This document shows positions 55,450-57,118 of a DNA stretch of 64,000 bases, piece by piece. Below the pieces are notes generated by a model. The model was given only the letters and a program-made list of their open reading frames with translations, ran no database searches and was not told the DNA's origin. The position numbers and the translations under genes were made by a program. Position 1 is the stretch's first letter. Each line of letters begins with the position of its first letter. The stretch is from Rothia mucilaginosa (GTDB lineage: Bacteria > Actinomycetota > Actinomycetes > Actinomycetales > Micrococcaceae). The stretch is from assembly GCF_019334805.1 (NCBI RefSeq), contig NZ_CP079822.1, positions 496,001 through 560,000 on the forward strand, written 5' to 3'.

Positions 55450-56232
55450 TTAGCGGGAGCCAGCGGCCGCAAGAGCCTGCTCAAAACTAAAGTTACCCAC
55501 ATACAGCGCCTTACCAAGCACTACGCCCTCCAAACCAGAAGGCACCATAGAACGCAGCTTCACAAGATCAGCCAGCGACGCCACACCACCGGACGCCACC
55601 ACCCGACAAGCAGTCTGAGCCAGCACCTCATCCAGCAGCTCCGCACCGGGGCCCGCCAGGGAACCGTCCTTGCTCACATCCGTAACGATATAGCGGCGCA
55701 CGCCCGCATTCTCCAGCCACGCCAGCGCCTCCGCCAGGTCAGGGCCCGACCAGTCGGTACCGCGAGCCACCGTCACCCAGCCCCGCTCAGGGTTATAGCG
55801 GGCATCGAGGCCAAGAGCCAGAAGATCAGAATCGGCATAGCGAGCCAGGGCACTTTCAAGCCAGGAAGAATCCGCCAGAGCCGCACTGGTCACGTTCACG
55901 CGATCCGGGTTCAGGCTCAGGGCACGCTCCAGGCTCTCAGCATTACGCACGCCGCCACTAACCTGAATACGAACCGGGGCAGAGCTCCGGGCGCTCTCGG
56001 CACGGACGGCGGCAACCACCTCAGCCAGAACCTCAGTATTCGTGCCGCGACCAAATGCCAAATCAAGGTCAACCAGGTGAATCCAGCGAGCACCAGCCTT
56101 CACCCAGGTCAGAGCCGCCTCAACAGGGTCGAGGCGCTGCTCACCACCGGACAGGGTGCCGCCCACCGGGCGCACCGCGTAGCCTTCAGAAATATCAACA
56201 GCGGGCAGAAGTTCAAGAACGGGTGCAGACAT
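55450..56232 (-). CDS. priA: PriA / HisA-family phosphoribosyl isomerase with altered substrate loops
   Basis: PriA is the actinobacterial (beta-alpha)8 isomerase that serves both histidine (HisA reaction) and tryptophan (TrpF reaction) synthesis. The catalytic acids are present in LLPAVD and VTDVSKDG, as are HLVDLDLAFG, SGGVRNAESL and VVASGGVASLADL. Substrate-contact regions differ from my memory of Streptomyces and mycobacterial PriA. The usual RGW before the DGG loop is RGT followed by DWSGP, GTAAL is TSAAL, and the first loop (RPVGGTLSGGEQRLDP) lacks the usual YGSP. This suggests loss of one activity, probably the histidine one. The start overlaps the hisH stop (TAATG) with GGAGG upstream, so translation is coupled. 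Confidence 0.9.
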   Translation of the reverse strand: MSAPVLELLPAVDISEGYAVRPVGGTLSGGEQRLDPVEAALTWVKAGARWIHLVDLDLAFGRGTNTEVLAEVVAAVRAESARSSAPVRIQVSGGVRNAESLERALSLNPDRVNVTSAALADSSWLESALARYADSDLLALGLDARYNPERGWVTVARGTDWSGPDLAEALAWLENAGVRRYIVTDVSKDGSLAGPGAELLDEVLAQTACRVVASGGVASLADLVKLRSMVPSGLEGVVLGKALYVGNFSFEQALAAAGSR

Positions 56233-56999
56233 TAGTTACCTCCCGCAGCAGTAGCGGAGTCGCCAGAAGACAGAGACTCAGAAGACAGGCGACCGGTCAC
56301 CGCCAGGGACGCAACCCAGCGGCGCATAAACTCTGCGCCCAGTTCACCAGAGCCCACAGGGCAGAACTGCACCGCCGTCAGCGGGCCGTTCTCAACCGCC
56401 GCGATATAGGCGGGCTCGGTGACAGTCCAAGTCACCGCCGGAGGGGCAATATATTCAATACTCTGATCAAAAGCCCACTCAAAAACGCCGTGCTCAGATT
56501 TGAAGTGAGCCTCGCCTTCAAGATCTTTGAGCAGCGCACTATCGGCGGACGGGCGCAAAGTAGCAACACCGGGAGTTACCTCGCGGGTAGAAAGCTCCAC
56601 GCTCTCACCGGGCCACTCCCCCATACACTGAACCTGAACCTGCCCCATCTGCGGATGCTCCACCGTAACCGAATCGAAGAGGCAACTCAACGCTGCACCG
56701 GCAACCAACACCGGACGACCACCAGCAACACGGCGACCAATCACACGCTCAGCGTCCTTAGCTTTCAGGTCTTCATACGCCTCAAGAGAGCTCGCACCGC
56801 CGGTAACCACCATGCCGTCAGCCTCACGCAGCTGATCGGGCACAGCGGTCACGATGACCTCCGCCCCCGCATCCTGAAGAAGCTTCACCAGGGCGCCACG
56901 AGTTCCGGGTTCCCCCAAAACGGCAACCACAGGACGAGCAGTCTGAGCATTCTGTACAGATTCAGTTTCGACGGGTGCGGATTCAACGGGAACAGGCAT
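56232..56999 (-). CDS. HisH-derived protein lacking the glutaminase triad
   Basis: Position (translationally coupled upstream of priA) and residual alignment (RPVL..., CLFDSVTVEHPQMGQ, TAVQF.P..SGELGAEF) identify this 255-residue protein as a HisH homologue. HisH is the glutamine amidotransferase subunit of imidazole glycerol phosphate synthase. None of the catalytic residues remains. The nucleophile motif GICxGMQ reads VAGAALS (Gly101 in place of Cys), and the QFHPEKSG motif reads QFCPVGSG (His to Cys213, Glu to Val215). The N-terminal DYGxGN and PGVGAF motifs are also replaced (GEPGTRG, TGGASS). The frame is open with normal codon use and a good ribosome site (GGAGC, six bases from the ATG at 56999). 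It cannot be a glutaminase; it may be a non-catalytic relic or have a new role. Confidence 0.82.
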   Translation of the reverse strand: MPVPVESAPVETESVQNAQTARPVVAVLGEPGTRGALVKLLQDAGAEVIVTAVPDQLREADGMVVTGGASSLEAYEDLKAKDAERVIGRRVAGGRPVLVAGAALSCLFDSVTVEHPQMGQVQVQCMGEWPGESVELSTREVTPGVATLRPSADSALLKDLEGEAHFKSEHGVFEWAFDQSIEYIAPPAVTWTVTEPAYIAAVENGPLTAVQFCPVGSGELGAEFMRRWVASLAVTGRLSSESLSSGDSATAAGGN

Positions 57000-57118
57000 C
57001 GGTGCGCTCCTATTTCATAGGCTCAAGAATTCGGCTCAAGCGCTCTAGCTTGAGAGATAGCGGATTCGGAGTCAAGACATCAACCTCATGCAAAAGCCAA
57101 CCACACGCGGGTCCATGC

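Follow-up and report, generated by a model that had tools for sequence, protein, structure and literature searches.

A HisH-derived pseudoenzyme kept under purifying selection in Rothia mucilaginosa, and a possible second role of HisH

A 64,000-nucleotide stretch of Rothia mucilaginosa DNA (assembly GCF_019334805.1, contig NZ_CP079822.1, positions 496,001 to 560,000), hereafter the window, carries on its minus strand (56232..56999) a gene, here called pseudo-hisH, whose 255-residue product is a homologue of HisH, the glutaminase subunit of imidazole glycerol phosphate synthase (TIGR01855), but lacks the Cys-His-Glu triad, the HisF-docking motifs and a genomic HisF. We consider it likely that this protein is a pseudoenzyme derived from HisH and that it reveals a second, non-glutaminase role of HisH in this group of bacteria. 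HisH would have this role in Rothia, and probably in related genera, independently of HisF and of the histidine pathway; one incomplete genome suggests that it may be independent of the neighbouring isomerase PriA as well. HisH and HisF are a textbook model of an enzyme complex, with HisH assumed to have a single job, and two losses that erased catalysis while keeping the protein would amount to a natural separation-of-function experiment. The first-pass annotation of the window had proposed a pseudo-amidotransferase that is retained rather than decaying, and this is borne out below; it had missed that the loss probably occurred twice, and that the positions kept in the protein are, by sequence comparison across the class, more variable than those erased.

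The frame begins with ATG, is uninterrupted and is preceded, 7 bases upstream of the start, by a Shine-Dalgarno-like AGGAG read from the sequence (57007..57011, minus strand, as are all the following features of the gene). When the pseudo-HisH proteins were aligned with 25 triad-bearing HisH of the genus Rothia, the catalytic Cys, His and Glu were found to be replaced in the window protein by Gly101, Cys213 and Val215, respectively. The nucleophile elbow GICVGLQ has become VAGAALS (residues 99-105, 56685..56705) and QFHPE has become QFCPV (residues 211-215, 56355..56369). The DYGAGN loop (residues 29-33, 56901..56915) is erased, as is the PGVGAF loop, now TGGASS (residues 66-71, 56787..56804), so that the losses first reported from the window hold up in the genus alignment, where PHMGWN and YFVHSY are likewise lost. 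A homologue set was compiled from the 111 hits ranking above the first one with a Pfam GATase domain, together with the three closest hits of the protein of the more distant genome G023 (114 in total); 96 of at least 210 residues were used, and 18 shorter ones, many of them on short contigs, were excluded. The Cys column is Gly in all 96, the His column is Cys in 93 and Asp in three, and the Glu column is Val, Leu or Ile throughout. A displaced triad, sought as G-x-C-x-G or HPE elsewhere in the chain as a check on the alignment, occurs in 0 of the 96.

The assignment to HisH has also withstood comparison with other families. HisH TIGR01855 is the best family match of the window protein (39.1 bits, below the cut-off of 105.4), the PdxT profile TIGR03800 gives 17.8 bits (under its cut-off of 105.55), and Pfam GATase does not match at all. 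An AlphaFold2 model has a mean predicted local distance difference score (pLDDT) of 88 and a predicted template modelling score (pTM) of 0.84, with HisH structures as its best structural matches, and in this model the protein retains the HisH fold. PdxT or another GATase family as the best family is thus ruled out by profile scores and structure matches. Homology to active enzymes without their catalytic residues and purifying selection, two features of a pseudoenzyme, are both found here. The named public records of the window protein still label it as imidazole glycerol phosphate synthase, which shows an annotation gap.

Pseudo-hisH is under purifying selection and is not decaying. The ratio of nonsynonymous to synonymous substitution rates (dN/dS), calculated by the method of Nei and Gojobori (NG86), is 0.223 for G000-G009, 0.155 for G000-G020 and 0.183 for G009-G020, and 0.163-0.202 for these three genomes against G043. 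Bootstrap intervals, computed for four close pairs, all have upper bounds below 0.36 (the highest is 0.352), and no broken frame exists among the eight genomes with the gene, so that neither outcome expected of simple decay was encountered. Active hisH gave 0.04-0.09 in six pairs, and priA gave 0.07-0.32 in the same six pairs of histidine-less genomes as pseudo-hisH. The sharing of codons at same-residue sites was compared with that predicted from codon usage in nine distant pairs, seven of pseudo-HisH and two of active HisH. In seven of the nine it is no more than predicted (z -0.83 to 0.97), and in two it is somewhat above expectation (z 1.75 and 2.33); the close pair G000-G043 has z 5.43, as expected of recent kinship. 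Because most distant pairs share no excess codons, the target of selection is chiefly the protein, and most of the pairs give no support to a signal in the DNA or RNA.

A search of 35 genomes of the genus gave a match in 34, and 33 were aligned; left out were G016 (65% complete, no match) and G004 (for which no locus was available then, and which has hisB, hisD and hisF). The triad is lost and the frame open in eight of the 33, namely seven genomes hereafter called clade A (G000, G009, G020, G043, G001, G010 and G015) and G023, the metagenome-assembled genome (MAG) UBA7136, which is 72% complete. Since eight members share the loss with open frames and low dN/dS, it lies far beyond chance. The clade A protein is common to all seven genomes at identities down to about 37%, contrary to the earlier suggestion of a quite recent loss, and pseudo-HisH varies in length at both ends. 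Three further database proteins are 87-98% identical to that of G023 and equal to it in length, and therefore an assembly error there is unlikely. No hisF or hisD was found over the cut-off in G000, G001, G009, G010, G015, G020 and G023 (G043 was outside these searches), and in G000 the only match of the hisF profile is PriA, at 48.7 bits, below the cut-off. There is no hisB match in any of the eight triad-less genomes, nor in the incomplete G016. When only the 32 genomes with a completeness of 90% or more and a contamination of 5% or less are counted, 25 carry hisB, and the remaining seven are those of clade A. All 35 genomes carry trpC.

The loss of the triad probably happened twice independently, as judged from sequence trees. 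In the largest tree, built from infC, rpmI, rplT, DUF1844, SseB and a small membrane open reading frame (ORF) of 34 genomes (917 columns), clade A is recovered with a support of 100, and G023 groups with genomes matching R. nasimurium records, the support of this group being 65. Forcing all eight triad-less genomes together is rejected by the approximately unbiased (AU) test (p = 1.2e-5). In addition, the G023 protein carries the nasimurium-type FDQNNEAM-PPQVTW in place of the FDQSI(E/D)YIAPPAV(T/S)W of the mucilaginosa group. TrpC was dropped as a species marker, the complete trp operon of G023 being of a different type. That operon (L227, C43) is compact and, judging from its ORFs, reads trpE, G, D, C, F, B, A. 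The dedicated trpF next to trpC sets G023 apart from 13 other genomes of the genus that were tested, and the operon was probably acquired horizontally.

The same positions have been retained in parallel in the two lineages. The 25 active HisH share 114 invariant columns; the seven clade A proteins all retain 35 of them, and G023 retains 32 of these 35 too (Fisher p = 2e-9), so that 32 columns are identical in 8/8 pseudo-HisH and 25/25 active HisH of the genus. They comprise most of the block GRRVAGGRPVL (residues 88-98, 56706..56738; 9 of its 11 positions are among the 32), the block GEWPG (residues 127-131, 56607..56621), the residues W175, F177, P187, V189 and W191 (56427..56477) and the block A-x-ENGPL-x-A (residues 201-209, 56373..56399). 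These columns are not a universal HisH core, since they are more variable than the erased ones across the class. For this comparison 41 HisH of the class, one further genome of the same family and two of the same order were used. Mean identity in the 41 is 0.75 at kept and 0.87 at erased columns (p = 9e-4). In family f4 (n=5, the loci of 5 of 10 genomes not being extractable by the motif rule) the values are 0.54 and 0.81, and in E. coli HisH 0.28 and 0.65. The other genome of the same family has 31 of the 32 residues and the two of the same order have 27 and 28, with no difference between kept and erased columns there. A further 66 loci, nearly all titled with Micrococcaceae genera, gave 0.96 for kept and 0.94 for erased columns; this set is biased, because the loci were retrieved with two peptide patterns that come from the kept blocks themselves, and therefore only columns outside those patterns count.

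In the model, GRRVAGG-RPVL lies before strand 97-101, GEWPG between strands 119-124 and 129-135, W175 to P187 after strand 170-172, and ENGPL in the turn joining strands 199-204 and 207-210, while the erased blocks follow strands 24-28, 62-67, 97-101 and 207-210. From this order of secondary structure elements, the kept and erased blocks would lie at opposite ends of the sheet, and the kept positions may form one surface. The erased side includes the Trp of PHMGWN and its neighbouring residues, lost in 8/8 pseudo-HisH. PHMGWN with its interface Trp, YFVHSY and HPEKS are the motifs that we take, by correspondence with known HisH, to dock HisF, and the window protein has none of them; the interface Trp of Thermotoga maritima HisH presumably falls in an erased block. 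HisF, which had been suggested as a partner, is rejected, as hisF is absent and the motifs for its docking are erased. HisF binds HisH near the HisH active site, and the interface Trp of the T. maritima protein is hW123 (PMC9032424).

These observations may be explained as follows. After the his genes had been lost, selection would have remained only on the second role, and because of this the catalytic and HisF-facing end would have decayed, with the other end (GRRVAG-RPVL, GEWPG, W-F...P-V-W, ENGPL) staying fixed. Pseudo-HisH would then probably act without catalysis, by binding a putative partner through the kept end of the fold. In its broadest form, which we put forward tentatively and at slightly less than an even chance, HisH would be two-faced in Rothia, and probably throughout the Micrococcaceae, with a glutaminase/HisF end and another end bearing an undescribed essential or strongly selected function that is independent of histidine synthesis, HisF and PriA and was exposed by two losses of the his genes. 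The kept residues (GRR-AG-RPVL, GEWPG, W-F, P-V-W, ENGPL) mark this possible function and can guide a search for the partner.

Several points weigh against this explanation. Selection on pseudo-hisH is weaker than on active hisH, and the correlated retention could partly reflect fold-specific structural needs or shared site rates. UBA7136 is only 72% complete, so the absence of his genes and of PriA elsewhere in it is uncertain. As for the two losses, two smaller marker sets point in the same direction, but a single origin stays compatible with both (AU p 0.14 and 0.18); the rejecting set depends on SseB and the small membrane ORF, which are absent in five of the seven clade A genomes, and G001 is without infC, rpmI and rplT in the stretch used for the tree.

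Among the alternatives, the one that survives best, itself unlikely, is that pseudo-HisH persists because it serves the adjacent PriA (HisA/TrpF isomerase family; 55450..56232, minus strand), which would now be a TrpF-only isomerase, as a chaperone, scaffold or regulator. The two genes adjoin in all seven clade A genomes. In the window the stop codon TAA of pseudo-hisH and the priA ATG overlap by a single base; the coupling reported for the window thus stands there together with the intact frame, but the overlap is limited to the four closest genomes, and the other three with priA have gaps of 32-222 bases. Window PriA, which resembles the SubTrpF subfamily, scores 225.7 bits against TIGR01919 (cut-off 306.45), and the loop 5 motif ARGW, kept in 25/25 PriA of genomes with his genes, is ARGT in 7/7 his-less genomes with priA. 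In Actinomyces PriA, the loss of the loop 5 Trp is tied to the loss of activity on N'-[(5'-phosphoribosyl)formimino]-5-aminoimidazole-4-carboxamide ribonucleotide (ProFAR), as stated in PMC5404923 (eLife); in our reading of the sequences the Trp of ARGW would be the same residue. There is no separate trpF (PF00697) in G000, which has trpC, and for this reason window PriA is probably the TrpF enzyme, without HisA activity. Two observations nevertheless speak against PriA as what keeps the gene in place. G023 has pseudo-HisH although priA is gone from the locus (the order there is pseudo-hisH, small membrane ORF, SseB) and has a separate trpF, and two genomes of another family, G155 and G183, have a divergent PriA but no HisH. 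PriA is picked up by the hisF profile in 23 of the 25 genus genomes searched (exceptions G016 and G023), and this profile gives no hisF/hisA-type match in the 72% complete G023 assembly. Moreover, Actinomyces SubTrpF genes complemented TrpF activity in vivo (PMC5404923); apparently no HisH was supplied there.

Slow neutral decay, leaving a relic that is open by chance, is less probable still. The selection weaker than on active hisH and the length variable at both ends would suit it; it is contradicted by dN/dS far under 1, by open frames in 8/8 homologues whose genomes, where searched, have no match for hisB, hisD or hisF, and by identical positions kept in two lineages. Only a very small chance can be given to the view that the frame persists merely because its translation serves priA as a leader or because a DNA or RNA signal is embedded in it: the one-base overlap in four genomes and the codon excess in two of nine distant pairs stand against seven pairs with no such excess, the gaps in three genomes, the absence of priA from the G023 locus and a long antisense ORF that is interrupted in G009. 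A new catalytic activity replacing glutamine hydrolysis, for example around Cys213, is similarly improbable, as this residue, present in 93 of 96 homologues (those of the window type and of the G001/G010 type), is Asp in three G023-type proteins and Ala in G015.

Pseudo-HisH as a HisH-derived pseudoenzyme with a possible second role may be compared with several known systems. In human CPS1 the glutaminase-like domain has no catalytic Cys and keeps the GATase fold without hydrolysing glutamine; domains of this kind sit inside a working enzyme, whereas the window protein is free and its enzyme partner and pathway are gone. SubTrpF is a PriA without histidine activity after his loss (Juarez-Vazquez et al. 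2017, PMC5404923), and the locus described here is similar, as the adjacent priA has lost the putative ProFAR-stacking Trp in a genome without the his pathway. Neither 'HisH', 'hisF' nor 'Rothia' occurs in the main text of that article, which describes no retained dead HisH, and the three words are likewise absent from a 2026 PriA paper (PMC13055916). In the accessible portions of the literature on HisH pseudoenzymes or moonlighting, glutamine amidotransferase pseudoenzymes and histidine gene loss in Rothia, we found no description of this protein. In Corynebacterium glutamicum, deletion of hisH causes no histidine auxotrophy and its HisH complements an E. coli hisH mutant (PMC3896937); that protein is thus kept while dispensable for histidine and, unlike the window protein, is catalytically functional. 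By analogy it fits retention beyond glutaminase activity, and it is no evidence for a second role.

Outside Rothia, the HisH profile was run on 121 genomes of family f4, of which 95 scored over the cut-off and 26 did not, 17 of the latter having no match whatever. Six of the nine with weak matches were read (all but G435, G446 and G449) and contained PdxT-like proteins with Cys and His in place, not pseudo-HisH. The 19 hisH-less f4 genomes tested have no priA and therefore have no bearing on the PriA question. Across the class, hisD is missing from nine of 393 genomes, two of them Rothia. Three others (G052, G107 and G406) have HisH with an intact triad, and the weak matches in G155, G183, G084 and G384 (one, two, one and three, respectively) were read as PdxT-, TrpG/PabA- or GuaA-like, not as pseudo-HisH; the three in G155 and G183 are two PdxT and, in G183, one of TrpG/PabA type. 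G155 and G183 (L078, L079) are 1.2 Mb genomes without hisD and HisH, and their divergent PriA (205-215 bits) is likely an independent TrpF-only PriA.

Some features of the surrounding DNA may be added. A 321-codon ORF runs antisense to hisH and priA (window 56055-57020, plus strand), and it is probably an artefact of composition, judging from the interruption of the matching frame in G009. The small membrane ORF beside hisH, of 56 residues and probably with two helices (L107:712-882 in G023; hisH-priA spacer), occurs in 29 of 34 genus regions; the loci of the mucilaginosa group and of G015 do not have it, and no significant Pfam match was obtained for it. Lastly, three ORFs named by reading as efeU-, efeO- and efeB-like lie 3' of rplT in G023 (L107:4365-7946) and in G015 (L108:9379-13081).
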